The translations under genes and the position numbers were made by a program. From Microcoleus sp. FACHB-831 (GTDB lineage: Bacteria; Cyanobacteriota; Cyanobacteriia; Cyanobacteriales; FACHB-T130): 64,000 nucleotides of DNA. The DNA lies in the NCBI RefSeq assembly GCF_014695585.1, contig NZ_JACJON010000040.1:1-64000 (forward strand), written 5' to 3'. The notes beneath the pieces are model-generated. The model had not been told where the DNA came from and searched no databases. It worked only from the letters and a program-made list of their open reading frames with translations. Each line of letters begins with the position of its first letter. Positions within the stretch are counted from its first letter, which is position 1. This document shows, in pieces, positions 4,136 to 12,931 of this stretch.

Positions 4136-5032
4136 ATGAAAGGAAGTTGTGCTTGCGGTGGCATTCAGTACGAACTCTCTGACAATCTATGCCGTTCAAA
4201 ATTGAAGTTGTCCTGCACATCCACGGCACACACGGCAAATATTTCTATGACTCAATCAAGCTCCCCACTCATAAACTCCCGCATTCAATCATATCTGCGC
4301 TTTGCGGCAAGCCAGCAACGTGACACGGAGCGCATCGAACCATTCCTCTCAACATTCAACCCCTACAACGACAACCCCTTTCTTAACTACGCCATCCCCG
4401 ATGACAACGCTGTGCCATCTTTAGATAACGTGAATGCACTCATTACTGCCTACGAAAAGCGGGGACGACAGCCACGATTGGAATATATTGCAAGTCTGGC
4501 ACCTGCGGTTGAGGAAGTGCTGATAGCTGCTGGTTTCACTGTTGAGGGACGTTTACCGTTGATGATTTGCGCTCCCGGTTCGGAGCAATTGCTTCCTACA
4601 CCTCCAGGCATAGAACTCATCGTACCGACTTCGGATGCCGAGATGCTTGCTACGGTTACGGTGCAACATGAAGCCTACGCAGCTCCTACTCCCAGTCTCG
4701 AAGACGCTGCCCGTCTACGAGATAGCATAGCGGCAGGCGGAATCGCAGTACTTGCTCATGTCGCAGCAACAGGTGAACCTGTGGGGGCTGGAGTCTGTTC
4801 AGTGCCCGGAAATCAGACGACAGAGATTGCTGGCATCGGTGTACGTGTCCCTTTCCGACAGCGGGGCATTGCAGGAGCCTTGACAACTCGGTTAGTGCGA
4901 GAGGCTTTTGATGCAGGCGTTACAATAGCTTTTCTCATGGCGGCGCATGAGGAAGAAAAGCGGATTTACACCCGCGCTGGCTTCTCCACAATTGGCGAGA
5001 TTTTGCACATTTCGCTCCCACCAAAGCTCTAA
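4136..5032 (+). CDS. GNAT acetyltransferase with a fused GFA-domain remnant
   Basis: Residues about 150-298 carry a GNAT N-acetyltransferase fold with the acetyl-CoA loop in IGVRVPFRQRGIAGAL and a late YTRAGF strand. The central part (about 60-150) is typical of two-part GNATs. The first 18 residues (MKGSCACGGIQYELSDNL) instead match the start of a GFA/CENP-V zinc protein (GSC-x-CG-x-x-Y-E) but stop before its remaining zinc ligands. This looks like a truncated gene joined in frame. The ancestral GNAT start is probably the ATG at 4247, which would give 261 aa. The acceptor substrate is unknown. Confidence 0.75.
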   Translation: MKGSCACGGIQYELSDNLCRSKLKLSCTSTAHTANISMTQSSSPLINSRIQSYLRFAASQQRDTERIEPFLSTFNPYNDNPFLNYAIPDDNAVPSLDNVNALITAYEKRGRQPRLEYIASLAPAVEEVLIAAGFTVEGRLPLMICAPGSEQLLPTPPGIELIVPTSDAEMLATVTVQHEAYAAPTPSLEDAARLRDSIAAGGIAVLAHVAATGEPVGAGVCSVPGNQTTEIAGIGVRVPFRQRGIAGALTTRLVREAFDAGVTIAFLMAAHEEEKRIYTRAGFSTIGEILHISLPPKL

Positions 5033-5120
5033 TCTAGATGAGCGATCGGGATTGAGAATTTATTAGCGGCGGTTGAATTTAGCCGTTAAGTATCCAGTAA
5101 ACCATCAGAGGGTTACAAAC

Positions 5121-5603
5121 ATGACAGACAAGAAATCTTTTATTTTGCGGCATCAACAAATTGCGGACAGTATGCAAGCGTTCTCCCACCCCTGGAATCC
5201 GAAATCCGAAATCTCAGGGACACAAATGGGGCGCTTGCTCGGACTAAAGCGCACCGGAGTCAACTTCGTAAAAGTCCCTCCAGGAAAGGAATCGTTTGTC
5301 TATCATTCCCACTACCGCGAGGAAGAATGGATTTACATCCTATCGGGCTGCGGAATTGCGGAAATTGACGGGGAAGAATTCGAGGTTGGTGCAGGAGACT
5401 TCATGGCATTCCCGACTCCTTCGGTAGCTCATCATCTGAGGAATGCAGGCAACGAAGACTTAGTTTACCTGGCAGGAGGAGAAAACCTCGATATAGAAAT
5501 TGCTGATTTTCCGCACCTTGGAAAACGTATGTTTCGCCGTGAGGATGCTATTGAAATCTTTAACCTGTCAGATGCTAAACTGTTTGGAGCATTAGACACC
5601 TAA
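5121..5603 (+). CDS. Cupin-domain protein
   Basis: A 160-aa single-domain cupin. The first cupin motif is seen as HSHYREEEWIYILSGCG (two His and a Glu as likely metal ligands) and the second as GDFMAFPTPSVAHHLRN, which supplies the last His. Such proteins bind a divalent metal and can be isomerases, sugar-phosphate-binding proteins or stress proteins; the substrate cannot be told. The start at 5121 follows AGAGGG by 8 bases and is preferred to an in-frame start 48 bases upstream. A TTTAGCCGTTAAG segment just upstream matches the border seen at other units of the array. Confidence 0.82.
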   Translation: MTDKKSFILRHQQIADSMQAFSHPWNPKSEISGTQMGRLLGLKRTGVNFVKVPPGKESFVYHSHYREEEWIYILSGCGIAEIDGEEFEVGAGDFMAFPTPSVAHHLRNAGNEDLVYLAGGENLDIEIADFPHLGKRMFRREDAIEIFNLSDAKLFGALDT

Positions 5604-5637
5604 TATTGAGCAAAATTAGCAACTTGCGGAACAAGTT

Positions 5638-6342
5638 ATGCACCACAGCTATAAAACAGAATTTGGTAGACGATATGATGCTTATGAGCAGTCAAAAGAA
5701 ATGGAAGTATACCGAAACTTGAAGGCGTTGCAATCTAGTTTTCAAGTTTTCAAGATAAATTTCTGTGAATTGATGAAGTGGTTAGAGCCCCTTAAAGATT
5801 CTAGAGAGTCTTTAAGTATGTATAACCAGGATAAAATGGAGAATGTAGATGCTCTAATTGCTGAAACTAAGAGGTTGCTCCATAATTTTCTTGCTTCTGC
5901 AAAGTCCCTGGTTGACCATACAAGAGTAATTGTTAACAGACTTTACGCAGAGCATGAGTTTAGAAAGGAGTATCAAAGCAAACTTGACCAGGATTTAGCA
6001 AACAATCCTGTGCAGAAATTTGTTCAAAATCTTCGGAACTATACCCAGCACTACACTTTACCCATTCTGGCCCTACAAATTACCTTATCAGATGACTTGA
6101 ACTTCAATATGAAAATGGATGTTAAGGTTCTCAAACAATGGGATGCATGGGGGAGTTCAAAATCTTATCTGGAGAGTATGGGAGATAACTTTTGTATAGT
6201 GACCCTGACTAATGAATACTTTGTGCTAATTCAGGGTTTCTATAGCTGGCTTATCGAGCGACAGCAGGAACTCCATCAAGCAGATTTTGAAAACCTTCAG
6301 AAAATGGAGGAAGAATTCATGAATCTTAGTGGCGCAGGGTAA
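5638..6342 (+). CDS. Helical protein with a HEPN-like RNxxxH motif
   Basis: A 234-aa, almost entirely alpha-helical protein of unknown function. Residues 78-95 (KRLLHNFLASAKSLVDHT) and 130-142 (QNLRNYTQHYTLP) are the clearest blocks. The second contains R133-N-Y-T-Q-H138, which fits the Rx4H motif (often RNxxxH) of HEPN ribonuclease and nucleotidyltransferase-partner proteins. The N-terminal half could form a coiled coil. It has no signal peptide. It is AT-rich like its neighbours and sits as a single unit after the cupin gene. A HEPN-type toxin or defence factor is plausible but rests on one short motif. Confidence 0.6.
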   Translation: MHHSYKTEFGRRYDAYEQSKEMEVYRNLKALQSSFQVFKINFCELMKWLEPLKDSRESLSMYNQDKMENVDALIAETKRLLHNFLASAKSLVDHTRVIVNRLYAEHEFRKEYQSKLDQDLANNPVQKFVQNLRNYTQHYTLPILALQITLSDDLNFNMKMDVKVLKQWDAWGSSKSYLESMGDNFCIVTLTNEYFVLIQGFYSWLIERQQELHQADFENLQKMEEEFMNLSGAG

Positions 6343-6691
6343 CACTGTGGTGTAGCGCACGGAAGGACTATCTGCCGCCGCTGACCTTTGCCGTTATACT
6401 ACACATGCTGATAATAATGAGTTGCGTACTCGAAACAACCAGATTACAGCTTCGACCTTGCGAGATATAGGATATTCAAATCGTCCACACGTTTTGGACA
6501 AACGATGGCGTTAGGTATTTGCTATTGGAAAACCGAGTAATCTCGTTAGACGAAGCGCGATCACTAACGTTTATACAAATGAAACATCTTGAACATTGTT
6601 TCAAGGCATACAGCGTATTCAAGCTAGGCTCAAATTGCCATGAAGTAGGGATAATCAACAAGTCGTTTCTTAGTTTGAAAGTGCGGTAGCT

Positions 6692-6890
6692 ATGACCGAA
6701 TTACTTGAAAGAGCGATCGCCCGATTGATACTCTACCTGCTAGCGAACAGGATGCGTTGGCGTAGCCTGCCGGAGGCATCTCGCTGCAATAATTCTCGAA
6801 GAACTCGAAGCTGAAATTCAGCGAGATGAAGCATTTGCAGGCTTCCAATATGTCCTAGCTAAACTTGCAGCCGAAGCAATAGTTGAATAA
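6692..6890 (+). pseudogene. Degraded antitoxin-like gene split by a palindromic repeat
   Basis: Reading in pieces gives MTELLERAIARL, then in another frame DTLPASEQDA, then after a repeat AAIILEELEAEIQRDEAFA followed by GFQYVLAKLAAEAIVE and a stop. This order matches the short cyanobacterial antitoxin-like family with the pattern LPASEQDAIAALILEELE, which usually precedes a RelE/ParE-type toxin. One base appears lost near 6725 and a 30-base palindrome (6751-6780) is inserted at the DA-IA junction, so no full-length product can be made. No toxin gene follows; a GNAT gene does. Confidence 0.75.
6751..6780. repeat. Palindromic repeat inserted in the antitoxin relic
   Basis: A 30-base element with GATGC and GCATC ends and an inner GCCT/AGGC stem. 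It is of the kind dispersed in many cyanobacterial genomes. It interrupts the coding frame of the relic gene. Confidence 0.65.
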
Positions 6891-6904
6891 CATACGATTA
6901 ATTA

Positions 6905-7372
6905 ATGAAAGTCAGACCTGCTAATCTTAATGACGTATCGCTAATTTTCTCCTTCATTCAGAAGAACTCAGAATTTAGCCGAAAGGTTGGTGGATTCTCT
7001 GGAGTATTGCGAGTATCCGAGGAGAAAATACGCAAAACGCTATTTGGTGCTATTCCTTTTTCTTACGTTTTGTTTGCCGAGACTTCAGGGCGTGAAGTTG
7101 GGTTTGCGTTATATGCATTCAGATACTCCTCATTTGCAGGTCAACCGAGCATCTGGCTTGACGATCTGTATGTGGATGAAGACATGAGAAGTAAAGGAGC
7201 CGGAGCAGCATTAATGGATTATCTTGCTCAAATTGCGAAGGAGACTGATTGTACTCATCTTGCTTGGAATGCTGATGCTCGAAACACTCGCGGGCTTAAT
7301 TTTTACGCTCGGTTGGGTGCAGAAATTACAAAGCAGGAGGGTAATCGATGTTTTTTGATCTGGACTCCATAG
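6905..7372 (+). CDS. GNAT family N-acetyltransferase
   Basis: A complete 155-aa single-domain GNAT. The N-terminal strand is MKVRPANLNDVSLIFSFI. The acetyl-CoA pyrophosphate loop is seen in LYVDEDMRSKGAGAALMDYL (about residues 88-107: V-x-x-x-x-R-x-x-G-x-G/A). NARNTRGLNFYARLGA-like text (DARNTRGLNFYARLGA) marks the last helix. The overall pattern resembles the diamine/spermidine acetyltransferase-like branch. The acceptor is unknown. It is the last gene of the row of single + strand units; TTTAGTCGTTAGCT follows about 20 bases after the stop. Confidence 0.85.
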   Translation: MKVRPANLNDVSLIFSFIQKNSEFSRKVGGFSGVLRVSEEKIRKTLFGAIPFSYVLFAETSGREVGFALYAFRYSSFAGQPSIWLDDLYVDEDMRSKGAGAALMDYLAQIAKETDCTHLAWNADARNTRGLNFYARLGAEITKQEGNRCFLIWTP

Positions 7373-7893: not shown

Positions 7894-8853
<960 letters not shown>

Positions 8854-8887
8854 TTGGCTCTTGCTAAAAAATCTTGCTGCCGAACTC

Positions 8888-9187
<300 letters not shown>

Positions 9188-9304
9188 CTCAATATCTCAA
9201 GTTAGATATAGGTTTGCCCGTGCGCTCACAAGTTTTTGTTGCTAAAAACGGTAACTCTGCAATAGATTTTTCGACTTGCACGCCACAGCAATAAAAGTTT
9301 TCAA

Positions 9305-9493
9305 CCCGCGCCCTAACAGGTGAAGCATACACACAATCCGCCATTTAAGCGGGAGGTTGTGGGTTCGATTCCCACCAGTTCCACTATTAGGAGACAAAAG
9401 TAAAAAATAACTTTTTACTTTTGTCTTCATCAAGGGACTGTAGCTCAAAGGTAGAGCGCCAAAAGTGAACTCGCTTTTCTAACTTGCGCGGGG
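9305..9493 (+). ncRNA. yrlA: YrlA-type bacterial Y RNA (circularly permuted tRNA mimic)
   Basis: Bacterial Y RNAs tether the ring protein Ro60/Rsr to partners; YrlA members carry a tRNA-like head. Here a tRNA can be read in permuted order. A T arm (9359-9375: GTGGG, TTCGATT loop, CCCAC) is followed by an acceptor 3' strand (9376-9382 CAGTTCC) and a closing hairpin of 14 perfect pairs (9393-9425). Then come the acceptor 5' strand (9434-9440 GGGACTG, six Watson-Crick pairs plus one G-U) and a D arm (9443-9457, GCTC/GAGC). The missing anticodon arm is replaced by a long stem whose base pairs CCCGCGC (9305-9311) with GCGCGGG (9486-9492). A free 3' CCA end is absent. This is the architecture reported for YrlA. 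No Ro60 gene lies in the window. Confidence 0.75.
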
Positions 9494-9586
9494 TCAATAT
9501 TACGATTAGTGCGGAATTGGATACAGGTAAAGCTGGAAATGCTTCCCACACCTGCACATAATTAGACACAAAAAAAGGTTCTACTT

Positions 9587-9716
9587 CGCGCCCTTATCAA
9601 GAAAGCGTACATACATCTAGTGCTAGCTCGTCTGTAGGCTATCGCCCCATAAAAATGGGGTCACGGATTCGCCTATTGTGTATGCAAATGAAAACAAAGA
9701 TTTCTTAACTGGCGCT
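9587..9716 (+). ncRNA. Y-RNA-stem-like element 2
   Basis: It shares the basal stem of the YrlA-like RNA. The 5' strand is CGCGCC (9587-9592) and AAGAAAGC (9599-9606); the 3' strand is TTTCTTAACT followed by GGCGC (9701-9715). GCGCC pairs with GGCGC and AAGAAA with TTTCTT. Inside, CATACA (9610-9615) pairs with TGTATG (9679-9684) and encloses a CCCCA/TGGGG hairpin. The head is not a permuted tRNA as in the upstream element, and its other arms are weak. It may be a diverged Y RNA; expression is unproven. Confidence 0.5.
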
Positions 9717-9801
9717 GAGCCATCTAAATTCAAAGGATAACTATGCAGTAAAATCTACCACAAAAGCTAAACCATGCTTACTTGTGGAGACATACTATTC
9801 T

Positions 9802-10266
9802 ATGGCACGCGATCCAATTCCAACCTGGTATTTTGCCTTAGTGGTAGTTCGTTTAGAACACCGTTTTCTATTAATTCATGAAAGTACACACGGTCAGAAT
9901 TGGCATTTACCCGCTGGGAGAGTAGAGCCAGGAGAAACTCTTGTAGATGCTGCTAAGCGAGAAACGCTAGAAGAAAGCAGCATTCCGGTAATAATTGAAG
10001 GAATTCTGCGAATTGAGCATACAACTTATCCAGAGAATAGGGCGAGGTTAAGAGTTATTTTTGTGGCTCGTCCGCAAGACAATACTCCTCCGAAAAGTAT
10101 TCCTGATGAACACTCATTAGGTGCTGCTTGGTTTTCTTTAGAAGAATTAGATAAATTGTCACTTCGAGAAGAAAAGGTTCGAGAAATGTTGAAATATATC
10201 GCTAGCGGTGGGCAGATTTACCCCCTTGAGTTGATAACTACCGAAACTGCGCTTTATAAAGTTTAG
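9802..10266 (+). CDS. Nudix hydrolase
   Basis: A 154-aa single-domain Nudix protein, hydrolysing a nucleoside-diphosphate-linked substrate with Mg2+. The Nudix box is GRVEPGETLVDAAKRE followed by TLEESSI, matching GX5EX7REUXEEXGU except that the G before the last position is S. An upstream LPAGRV and strands ALVVVRLEHRFLLI fit the fold. The ATG at 9802 is chosen; a GTG 18 bases upstream (9784) is possible. It sits between two Y-RNA-like elements, starting 86 bases after element 2 and ending 9 bases before element 3. An RNA-cap or nucleotide-sanitising role is possible but inferred. Confidence 0.82.
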   Translation: MARDPIPTWYFALVVVRLEHRFLLIHESTHGQNWHLPAGRVEPGETLVDAAKRETLEESSIPVIIEGILRIEHTTYPENRARLRVIFVARPQDNTPPKSIPDEHSLGAAWFSLEELDKLSLREEKVREMLKYIASGGQIYPLELITTETALYKV

Positions 10267-10274
10267 AATTTTCA

Positions 10275-10398
10275 CTCCGCGCCATGAGTTAGAAAGCTTA
10301 CATACTAACCAAATTGCGTTAGGCGCTTGATTAAAAAGCGGGATAATGCAGGTTCAAATCCTGAGTATGAGTAAATGGCTTTCTTAGCTTGCGCGGAG
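10275..10398 (+). ncRNA. Y-RNA-stem-like element 3 with cloverleaf-like head
   Basis: The basal stem pairs CTCCGCGC (10275-10282) with GCGCGGAG (10391-10398) and AGAAAGC (10291-10297) with GCTTTCT (10378-10384). The head reads in normal tRNA order: CATACT (10301-10306) pairs with AGTATG (10364-10369); CTAAC/GTTAG forms a D-like arm; CGCTT/AAGCG with a 7-base loop forms an anticodon-like arm; CAGG-TTCAAAT-CCTG (10349-10363) forms a T-like arm. It is not a normal tRNA: position 33 is not U, and the acceptor continues into the long stem. The shared stem suggests the same binding protein as the YrlA-like RNA. Confidence 0.55.
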
Positions 10399-10425
10399 TA
10401 TCCAAGCTCAAAAAGAGGTTGAGTA

Positions 10426-11148
10426 ATGAGCGAACACCGTTTAAATGAAATTGTGATTGAACGTCCTCGTAGAGGAATGAGGATAAGTTCAAAAAAAGTT
10501 GGAGGCTACAAGAAAGCTCTGCAAAAATTGACTGAAGAAGCGATTGTAGATGGGTTGCTATCTCCTTATTTAATAAAACCCAGACATACCACAAAGCACT
10601 TTTCAGATCATCTAGGTCCATTGTATCGCTGGCTGCGTTCTAAAGTGGGGCAGCGTTGGGATGATGCATACAGCGAGCTATGTCGGAGCCTTGATAGTAG
10701 CACAATAACTGGGCGACACGTTTTGTCTCATGTATGGCATTTTGTGGAACTAAATGTTGTGCTTATTGACGGCGTTCCTTACCGTAAAGATAGACAAGAA
10801 TACCCCCTTGATCGTTTTTGTTGGACATGGAAAAATCAACTTTACGTCAATCCGGAAACAGGAATTCTTTCGATAGCTGAGAAAGCGCCAAAGGAACTTC
10901 CTAAAAAGCGGGAAGATTTGGTTGTGATAGACAAATACCATCATTATCGAAAGGTGGATGATGTTTTGTTTCGGATCGTCCTTCAAGACTTGCCACCCAT
11001 GAGCAAAGCTACAGATATTGTACTGAAGGCGACTATCAATGCTTCGATAGCATGGCAAGAATACGGTAGTGAAGTCTATGCTGTTAGCAAACAGCAATGT
11101 AGTAAGAAGGAAATTAAGTTCATCATGAAGCAATTGGCTAAAAATTAG
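10426..11148 (+). CDS. Hypothetical protein (240 aa) beside Y-RNA-like elements
   Basis: Not recognised as a named family. It is a basic soluble protein. The most family-like block is PLYRWLRSKVGQRWDDAYSE (about residues 65-84) followed by ITGRHVLSHVWHFVELNV, and then YPLDRFCWTW near residue 127. It ends in a basic helix (KKEIKFIMKQLAKN). No signal peptide or membrane span is present. An AAGAGG lies 9-14 bases upstream of the ATG. The basic character and its position 28 bases after element 3 would suit an RNA-binding partner of the Y-like RNAs, but this is inference. Confidence 0.65.
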   Translation: MSEHRLNEIVIERPRRGMRISSKKVGGYKKALQKLTEEAIVDGLLSPYLIKPRHTTKHFSDHLGPLYRWLRSKVGQRWDDAYSELCRSLDSSTITGRHVLSHVWHFVELNVVLIDGVPYRKDRQEYPLDRFCWTWKNQLYVNPETGILSIAEKAPKELPKKREDLVVIDKYHHYRKVDDVLFRIVLQDLPPMSKATDIVLKATINASIAWQEYGSEVYAVSKQQCSKKEIKFIMKQLAKN

Positions 11149-11341
11149 GCCGATTGTAAATTTATTACCAGGCTAATAGATAAAGTCAGATTTAATTGAC
11201 TAATAGCTGGCATCGGTAGTCTATTAAACCACAGTTTCGCTTTTAATCATAAATTCAACTATGGCAGGTTGGAAGTGAAGACGATGTGGTGGGAAGCGTT
11301 GGTTTTTAATATTAATTTTTTTATTGGTACTGGAGGTATGT

Positions 11342-12156
<815 letters not shown>

Positions 12157-12268
12157 ACTCTTAAAAAAGGACAAACTGCACTTATCGTAGGGTGGAGATT
12201 GCCGACCATTTAAGCGTTATACAGTTTGGACAGAGCAATAAAAATTATTAGTCAAGGAGGAATAAAAG

Positions 12269-12931
12269 ATGGTGGAAATAACTGTACAAACCGTCAAACA
12301 ACTGCGTCTAAAAACAGGCGCAGGCATGATGAATTGTAAAAAGGCGCTGAATGAAACAAATGGCGATATGGCGAAAGCGATCGCATGGCTGCGCCAACAA
12401 GGTATAAATAGCACCAGATGCAAAGGTGGCAATGCAATTGCGGCAGAAGGAATTATTGACAGCTACATTCATACTGGTGGTAAAGTCGGCGTGCTAGTGG
12501 AAGTTAACTGCGAAACTGACTTTGTAAGTCGCAGCGAAGTATTTCAAAGCTTGGTACGGAACATCGCCATGCAAATTGCAGCTTGTCCGAATGTGGAATA
12601 CGTGAAAGTGGCAGACATCCCGGCTGAAATTGTCGAGAAAGAAACACAAATCGAAATGGGACGGGATGACTTGGCTAACAAACCAGCAAACATCAAAGAA
12701 AAAATTGTTCAAGGACGAATTGAAAAACGCCTGAAAGAAATGTCTTTGATGGATCAGCCCTACATTCGCGATCAAAATATTGTTGTGGAAGAACTTGTTA
12801 AGCAAGCGATCGCCCAACTCCGCGAAAATATCCAAGTGCGTCGCTTCGTCCGCTTTGAGTTAAGCGAAGGTATTGAAAAACCAGAAACTAACTTTGCCCA
12901 AGAAGTTGCTGCACAAATCGGCGGCGGGTAA
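12269..12931 (+). CDS. tsf: Elongation factor Ts paralogue
   Basis: A 220-aa EF-Ts, the nucleotide-exchange factor for EF-Tu. It has the N-terminal UBA-like domain ([19 protein letters not shown]), the EF-Tu-contacting TDFV motif in [12 protein letters not shown], and the conserved RGDD-like [20 protein letters not shown]. The end is [15 protein letters not shown]. The length fits cyanobacterial EF-Ts. It is not downstream of rpsB, the normal tsf context, and differs at usually conserved spots such as [13 protein letters not shown] in place of a Lys-rich IASAGKK-like segment, so a second copy is likely. AAGGAGG lies 9 bases upstream. Another tsf should exist elsewhere if this is a paralogue. 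Confidence 0.85.

Follow-up and report, generated by a model that had tools for sequence, protein, structure and literature searches.

The question raised by this locus is what a short stretch of cyanobacterial DNA encodes when the parts of a tRNA stand in it out of order. The window, the whole 64,000-nucleotide stretch of Microcoleus sp. FACHB-831 that was analysed, had previously been given a sequence-only reading, which proposed a YrlA-type Y RNA built on a tRNA in permuted order at 9305-9493. Both the order and the boundaries were confirmed, with three corrections given below, and the stretch very probably encodes a small RNA that mimics a tRNA in shuffled order. The element, named E1, comprises the following parts.

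9306 to 9491, plus strand: E1, a chassis RNA with a circularly permuted tRNA head (sequence reading, fold, covariation, covariance model)
9337 to 9353, plus strand: anticodon-arm-like hairpin of 5 bp (one G-U) with the 7-nt loop CAUUUAA (read from the sequence)
9354 to 9358, plus strand: variable loop, 5 nt (read from the sequence)
9359 to 9375, plus strand: T arm (sequence, permissive Rfam match, covariation)
9376 to 9440, plus strand: acceptor helix in permuted order, with the 3' strand at 9376-9382, an insert, and the 5' strand at 9434-9440 (sequence, fold, covariation)
9383, plus strand: A after the acceptor 3' strand (read from the sequence)
9390 to 9428, plus strand: A/T-rich hairpin of 17 bp (9390-9406/9412-9428) within the acceptor loop (fold of E1)
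9443 to 9457, plus strand: D arm (sequence, permissive Rfam match, covariation)

From 5' to 3', E1 runs through chassis stem, anticodon-arm-like hairpin, variable loop, T arm, acceptor 3' strand, A/T hairpin, acceptor 5' strand and D arm back to the chassis stem, which consists of CCGCGC/GCGCGG and UGAAGC/GCUUUU flanking an asymmetric internal loop. The sequence-only reading had the anticodon arm replaced by a long stem and took the hairpin at 9337-9353 for an unusual addition within it; that hairpin is instead the retained anticodon arm, so that the cloverleaf is complete, with all four arms present and the opening between the D arm and the anticodon arm, near positions 26/27. The seven acceptor pairs, one of them G-U, were read exactly as before. 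The absence of a free CCA end was also upheld: positions 9383-9386 read A-CUA, with a CUA behind the discriminator that is not CCA-ready, and the acceptor end is closed by a loop. The anticodon loop carries A33 where a decoding-competent loop needs U33. As had been anticipated for a tRNA finder, which might report halves or nothing, ARAGORN reported no tRNA in the window, and Rfam at gathering scores gave no match for E1. A permissive Rfam search aligned E1 with YrlA (RF02553) at 32.3 bits (gathering 69) over model positions 24-84 of 114, the tRNA-like core alone being aligned, and with permuted tmRNA (RF04321) at 32.4 bits (gathering 47), through the T arm-acceptor part alone.

E1 folded with a z of -6.1, and 0 of 200 shuffles were equally stable, a value to which the insert hairpin contributes. 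Minimum-energy and centroid folds of the single sequence showed the outer stem, acceptor helix, D arm and insert hairpin; they lacked the T arm and the inner chassis stem, both of which rest on the comparison of copies. For this comparison an alignment of 30 permuted copies was used, comprising 27 of 44 permuted hits of the scanner described below, E1, a copy on contig C58 and one from locus L055 (the 238-nt permuted copy of L073 was too long for the alignment list). Scored on the structure read from E1, which tilts both the pair counts and the slid control in its favour, 98.5% of 840 pair cells form; sliding the partners by one, two or three columns lowers this to 32-48%. Both partners vary in 16 of the 28 pairs. 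In the permuted acceptor helix pairing is 100%, with compensatory changes in 6 of its 7 pairs. A covariance model (R1) built from 22 of the 30 copies, omitting E1, the C58 copy, L143b and five tRNA-Leu-like copies, scored E1 at 102.5 bits (E 6.8e-20 in the 6.42-Mb genome, with a rough E calibration) and the C58 permuted copy at 91.8 bits in the same genome. Partial matches of R1 to ordinary tandem tRNA genes reached 35.8 bits (on C29), and scores below about 36 bits are consequently weak alone. The permuted tRNA of E1 is real.

The A/T hairpin, described earlier as closing the acceptor with 14 bp, is present and folds as 17 bp. It is probably an inserted repeat, since like palindromes occur elsewhere in the genome on both strands (e.g. 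C67:128489 and C74:36036) and the acceptor loop measures 51 nt in E1 against 4-16 nt in the remaining 29 aligned copies. The copy of L073, outside the alignment, has a long insert of its own. An integron attC site was also considered for the CTAAC/AAGC ends and the cassette-like neighbours; by eye, AAC lies on the same strand at both ends and R-box pairing is absent, and this candidate was rejected.

The stem of E1 recurs. In the chassis the two parts of the stem enclose a fixed internal loop, CCUAAC/AACUUG, and the heads it bears are exchangeable; eight copies were found in this genome, E1 included, two of them weak (E2 and the second copy on C75). Two copies follow E1 in the window, having the stem in common with it and different heads.

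9586 to 9717, plus strand: E2, chassis copy with a degenerate tRNA-like head (shared arms; R1 30.9 bits)
10277 to 10396, plus strand: E3, chassis copy with a normal-order tRNA-like head, T arm GCAGGTTCAAATCCTG (R1 44.7 bits, E 1.8e-6 genome-wide)

The R1 score of E2 corresponds to E 5.6e-5 in 121 kb and 0.003 genome-wide, and because ordinary tandem tRNA genes score higher with this model, E2 is identified mainly by its shared arms. C58 carries two chassis copies, one of which is a second permuted tRNA whose acceptor is closed by AAUU and whose fold is only slightly more stable than those of shuffles (z -1.6). Of two copies on C75, the second scored 32.6 bits with R1, no higher than stray tandem-tRNA matches, and is supported by its visible arms. 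A single copy on C29 adjoins 38 tRNA genes. The copies on C58 and C75 sit upstream of a divergent Ro60-like gene; E1 itself is not adjacent to such a gene: one lies on C58 and the other on C75, and chassis copies of its own accompany each of them.

The protein encoded beside the C58 and C75 copies combines helical repeats with a vWA domain, and an RNA ligase (above the Pfam cut-off; 143.9 of 151 bits with the DRB0094 model) and KptA occur in its gene neighbourhood. Sequence comparisons placed it at a distance from known Ro60 proteins: no match to Pfam TROVE (PF05731) was obtained at E 0.1, the Pfam vWA scores were below the cut-off (22.9 and 18.7 of 27 bits), the weak phmmer relatives were TROVE chains (E 0.2), and a profile of the partner matched PDB sequences weakly, with TROVE chains at E 0.66. 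A search of the genome with PF05731 returned only a gene on C67, and BLASTP between the C58/C75 and C67 proteins gave E 0.004 as a two-sequence comparison. Structure prediction from a single sequence was poor (pLDDT 45); an AlphaFold model from 40 sequences reached pLDDT 79.5 and pTM 0.72. With this model the first 11 PDB matches in Foldseek were all Ro60/TROVE (E 5e-11 to 2e-7), and VIA-align gave Ro60 Z scores of 18.4-20.8 over 414-441 residues versus at most 12.3 for other chains. The MIDAS motif DxSxS appears in the partner alignments as DKSSSM/DKSGSM, and the predicted model has the Ro60 fold, a helical-repeat ring with a MIDAS-bearing vWA domain. The C58/C75 protein is here taken as a divergent Ro60 on the evidence of the predicted fold.

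A Ro60 gene, which the sequence-only reading had proposed to look for, is thus present in the genome in canonical form on C67 and in divergent form on C58 and C75. The canonical gene has tandem tRNA-like RNAs of its own upstream, in normal order and of another kind than E1; three exceed the Rfam tRNA cut-off, ARAGORN called none of them, and R1 scored 31.3 bits there. At L003 7769-8474 these RNAs were observed to carry a stem GGGCCGA...GAGGGTTATC in the anticodon region. The C67 protein gave no tblastn match (1e-5) in the 80 best partner loci described next.

Among 386 sampled cyanobacterial genomes, the partner gene was present in 29, an E1-type RNA (R1 match) in 25 and both in 23 (Fisher p 2e-29, with shared ancestry ignored). 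The six gene carriers lacking an R1 match comprise three with partial gene matches (G125, G203, G385), one with the gene match split across the ends of one contig (G103), one with the gene on a 5.4-kb contig (G116) and one with a full-length gene match (G127); two genomes, G328 and G038, gave an R1 match and lack the gene. A scan of a named collection with a two-sequence alignment of the partner gave no matches, and with an 18-sequence alignment 291 relatives were confirmed, of which the best 80 loci were retained. With a stem-based scanner, whose score was set on known copies, 75 of these 80 loci yielded 246 candidate chassis elements; 239 share the strand of the gene and 7 lie opposite. The reversed-sequence control gave 14 hits, and six or more of the plus-strand hits appear to be fortuitous (e.g. 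L078 6779, L136 1509, L130 2928).

By head, the 246 elements from the best 80 loci comprise 97 normal-order tRNAs, 44 permuted tRNAs in 39 loci (a class defined by a motif rule), 40 short hairpins, 14 sarcin-ricin/GTPase-centre heads, 12 H69-71 heads, 25 others (among them a small number of chance hits as well as tRNA heads whose T loop is variant or interrupted), 7 over-long elements (above 245 nt, set aside as ambiguous) and the 7 on the opposite strand. ARAGORN called 91 tRNAs inside chassis elements in these loci, so annotation pipelines may list the normal-order heads as tRNAs. Seven of the best 80 loci hold 12-26 tRNA genes outside the detected elements, some perhaps missed heads; such genes were observed upstream of the Ro60-like gene in L074, L076, L078, L095, L101, L111 and L138. 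The T loop of tRNA-like heads is in places interrupted by short inserts, several starting GGTACCCTxCGGGAA (L075 5395, L091 416, L100 8137, L109 8480, L116 6634, L121 8146, L122 7169), and a tmRNA-like match at L077:6585-6668 falls within no detected chassis element.

Some heads resemble 23S rRNA in place of tRNA. One 202-nt head type aligned with the GTPase-associated centre of its own 23S rRNA at a score of 84 (shuffled maximum 49) and includes the sarcin-ricin stretch TAGTACGAGAGGA. The sarcin-ricin 12-mer AGTACGAGAGGA has 30 occurrences, spread over 28 of the best 80 loci, against 0.15 expected by base count; all 30 lie on the gene's strand, 26 are flanked by both chassis arms, 14 fall inside scanner elements and 27 have a GTPase-centre motif downstream. 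Examples were observed at L038 3905-4106 (reverse-complement coordinates), L077 11796-11997 and L128 11620-11820. A second head type repeats CGTAACTATAACGGnCCTAAGGTAGCGA of the 23S H69-71 region, with scores of 54-55 against the shuffled maximum of 49, and this exact H70 motif was found 13 times on the gene's strand in the best 80 loci, 5 of them inside scanner elements (heads of this type are seen, e.g., at L072 3772-3986, L131 6890-7071 and L077 7211-7389). The 3' parts of some H69-71 heads resemble by eye the preceding 23S sequence, suggesting permutation, with alignments that lie within the range of shuffles. Several rRNA-like heads gave alignments that did not exceed 49, the shuffled maximum, and these were not counted. 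Such heads are a minority (by the scanner, in 14 and 12 of the best 80 loci), and none occurs in the window.

The genes around E1 were compared with the same 80 loci, recurrence being counted on the gene's strand, with flanks partly cut at contig ends in some loci. The promoter and genes of the relevant part of the window are as follows.

7894 to 8853, plus strand: GNAT acetyltransferase with two GNAT stretches (Pfam; in 21 of the best 80 loci)
8888 to 8916, plus strand: predicted promoter with a TrcR-type double operator, TTGACA 8888-8893, 17-nt spacer, TAGTAT 8911-8916 (sequence)
8898 to 8905 and 8909 to 8916, plus strand: two TGTAGTAT operator sites, 11 nt apart, the second overlapping the -10 box (sequence)
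8987 to 9187, plus strand: 66-aa accessory protein (...EAVYG), first gene behind the operator (in 62 of the best 80 loci, all on the gene's strand)
10426 to 11148, plus strand: 240-aa protein with no Pfam or NCBIfam match (in 44 of the best 80 loci)
11324 to 11725, plus strand: ribosomal protein L7/L12-like protein (in 28 of the best 80 loci)
11731 to 12156, plus strand: 141-aa protein of unassigned family (in 28 of the best 80 loci)
12269 to 12931, plus strand: elongation factor Ts-like protein (in 7 of the best 80 loci)

The NUDIX gene and the four genes tested from 4136-7372 recur in 0 of the best 80. From this recurrence, 7894-12931 has the appearance of an island that belongs to the system, with the Ro60-like gene located elsewhere in the genome. 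The 66-aa protein had no Pfam match. An EF-Tu-like gene lies upstream in L045, and RNA-repair neighbours occur in a minority of the best 80 loci (KptA in 9, Rnl in 6).

The putative operator offers a link to translational stress. In Anabaena, TrcR is described in PMC10272220 as repressing the trn tRNA array, rtcB and other genes, as being relieved by translational stress, and as binding a site, TGTAGTAT, that overlaps the -10 box. The window has this arrangement at 8898-8916. The composite TTGAC-N14-18-TGTAGTAT occurs at 7 sites in the 6.42-Mb genome (reversed control, 1). Four are in the window, at the C58 and C75 Ro60-like loci and at the C29 38-tRNA array; the fifth, a double operator, precedes an EF-G gene on C46 (TIGR00484, 966 bits; L156 614-2737), the sixth, with a double TGTAGTAT on C10, precedes a 491-aa protein (L155 865-2340), and the seventh is on C67. 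The 491-aa protein had no Pfam or NCBIfam match; a vWA-like stretch is visible by eye, and it is possibly a further Ro60-like protein. Across the best 80 loci the 8-mer TGTAGTAT occurs 128 times on the gene's strand and 40 times on the other (reversed controls 36 and 21), with at least one copy on the gene's strand in 69 of the 80. From the operator sequence we predict an array that stays silent during normal growth and that translational stress derepresses through a TrcR-type operator.

The system extends to contigs labelled as phage, their viral nature being the collections' labels. The partner is encoded on four IMG/VR contigs (46-50% identity, 36.7-390 kb) and on one 595-kb uncultured phage record. 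These carriers of the divergent Ro60 are L145-L148 and L154, most with clear chassis RNAs; the 66-aa protein was also seen by eye upstream in L145 and L146. Best R1 scores were 46.9-77.4 bits on L146, L147, L148 and the 595-kb record, and 31.4 bits on L145, within the range of stray tandem-tRNA matches. As read from the sequence, one head of the 595-kb record is permuted at another point, its anticodon arm following the D arm.

We infer that E1 is transcribed, is bound by Ro60 and responds to stress in this organism, and the reading preferred here, to which a probability of roughly 60% is assigned, is that of a stress-induced Ro60-particle RNA whose head acts as a bait or docking module. In such a particle the outer two-part stem would serve as a common handle, presumably bound by the divergent Ro60. 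The chassis internal loop loosely resembles the vertebrate Ro60 site as PMC4726728 describes it (a 7-bp helix with a single bulged C and a 3-nt bulge opposite), and the correspondence is not clear. The head of E1 is a whole cloverleaf, permuted such that the loop-closed acceptor end would face outward and aminoacylation is impossible; sister RNAs on the same chassis would present the anticodon loops of normal-order tRNA mimics, and in some genomes sister heads resemble the 23S sarcin-ricin loop/GTPase centre and the H69-71 region. Upon translational stress the array would be derepressed through the TrcR-type operator, and the heads could engage proteins that recognise tRNA or the ribosomal factor site, such as damaging RNases, the repair ligase/KptA, or EF-Tu/EF-Ts/L12-type proteins, either competing with them or tethering them to the Ro60 particle, which would handle damaged RNA. 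Precedents for both roles are found in the literature on bacterial Y RNAs: PMC7790460 suggests a competitive-inhibitor role for the YrlA tRNA domain and states that YrlA is not cut by an anticodon nuclease, and a Y RNA of D. radiodurans is described as tethering Rsr to PNPase (PMC4726728, PMC7790460). A broader reading, which we put forward tentatively and at slightly under even odds, is that of a library of stress-induced RNAs on one handle, miniatures of the vulnerable parts of translation that serve as baits or sensors in a cyanobacterial and huge-phage Ro60 system. The parts displayed would be tRNA anticodon faces, acceptor faces by permutation, the sarcin-ricin loop with the GTPase centre, and H69-71. 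If true, such baits or sensors would stand beside spare tRNAs, translation-factor-like proteins and RNA-repair enzymes in an island dedicated to immunity against, and repair of, translation damage.

A pure bait model leaves the 40 short hairpins, which have no evident mimicry, and the 25 unclassified heads among the 246 elements unexplained. The heads might alternatively be docking modules of a scaffold, bringing to the Ro60 particle proteins that bind tRNA or the factor site (EF-Tu/EF-Ts/L12-like proteins, RNA ligase, KptA, exonucleases) and not competing with damaging RNases. Tethering by a bacterial Y RNA and the translation-factor-like and repair genes adjoining the chassis RNAs both speak for a scaffold; however, such genes occur in a minority of the best 80 loci (L12 in 28, KptA and Rnl in the few given above, with some flanks ending at contig ends) and chassis RNAs in 75, and we judge this the less likely reading. 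That E1 is an ordinary YrlA-type Y RNA serving the canonical Ro60 (Rsr) on C67 is improbable. That gene exists, and beyond the partial match of E1 to YrlA the best relative observed, from L078, matches the model end to end at 37.1 bits, still below 69; yet the score of E1 is about half of the gathering score, the canonical Ro60 already has adjoining tRNA-like RNAs, and the relatives of E1 co-occur with the divergent Ro60, in loci where the C67 protein found no match.

The remaining alternatives concern the tRNA itself. A permuted tRNA gene of the kind found in some algae and archaea, from which a functional tRNA matures, would fit the complete, permuted cloverleaf and the CCA seen in the acceptor loop of the L055 relative; against it stand the CUA after the discriminator, the lack of a free end, A33 and the 17-bp insert of E1, as well as the rRNA-like and other non-tRNA heads on the same chassis, and it is very improbable. 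A permuted, two-piece tmRNA is hardly credible, because its partial match stays under the gathering score and involves the T arm-acceptor part alone, E1 has an ordinary-form D arm, and heads of other kinds occur in the chassis class. Canonical membership of either YrlA or tmRNA was rejected, the Rfam scores being too low. Decayed tRNA halves or a pseudogene remnant would accord with the blank results of ARAGORN and of Rfam at gathering and with the degenerate head of E2. The two unrelated broken tRNA genes that the sequence-only reading named as its alternative are ruled out by covariation, the permuted acceptor and D stems both showing compensatory changes across 30 copies, and E1 scores far above background with a model that omits it; decay has next to no probability for E1, and for the chassis class as a whole the aligned sequences already refute it.

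The purpose of bacterial Y RNAs and of their tRNA mimicry is an open question, and here the mimicry takes the form of a repertoire, with tRNAs shown from both ends and two functional 23S regions on one common handle. This repertoire is tied to a divergent Ro60, translation-factor-like proteins, RNA-repair enzymes, tRNA arrays and a predicted translational-stress operator, and the same kit appears in phage-labelled contigs up to 595 kb. The bait or tether idea is directly testable in culturable cyanobacteria, and the finding may help to explain their long tRNA arrays. E1 is missed by Rfam at gathering scores, as the partner is by the Pfam TROVE model. Among the titles and abstracts listed from the open-licence literature, none described this RNA family or 23S-mimic heads, and an earlier description elsewhere is possible.

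Among known systems, YrlA (RF02553) is the closest in kind: like E1, it has a permuted tRNA-like module with a closed acceptor and a stem whose open ends are expected to be turned toward Ro60. E1 differs in lying far under the Rfam threshold, in its other stem with the CCUAAC/AACUUG internal loop and in its retained anticodon arm, and its family differs in bearing several exchangeable heads per locus, 23S mimics among them in some, and in having a divergent Ro60 as partner. A position beside a Ro60 gene, characteristic of YrlA, holds for the relatives of E1 (239 elements on the gene's strand; 75 of the best 80 loci) and not for E1 itself. The original proposal of a YrlA-type Y RNA is therefore right in kind, as a Y-like RNA with a Ro60 partner, since relatives of E1 adjoin a divergent Ro60 gene whose predicted fold matches Ro60, and does not stand as an assignment to the YrlA family. 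With the Ro60/Rsr-Y RNA particles of D. radiodurans and Salmonella the system shares a Ro60-fold protein of helical repeats and vWA, small RNAs adjoining its gene, and RNA-repair genes in some loci; unlike them, it has a partner missed by PF05731, arrays of several RNAs, translation-factor-like neighbours, and RNA ligase/KptA in the observed loci. In the permuted tRNA genes of algae and archaea the 3' half precedes the 5' half, as in E1, which differs in showing no sign of CCA-ended maturation and in a chassis common to non-tRNA heads. The tRNA arrays of the TrcR regulon (trn operon) have the same predicted TGTAGTAT operator, are linked in 7 of the best 80 loci and, on C29, stand beside a chassis copy; they hold ordinary tRNA genes, whereas the chassis RNAs are apparent mimics lacking free acceptor ends.
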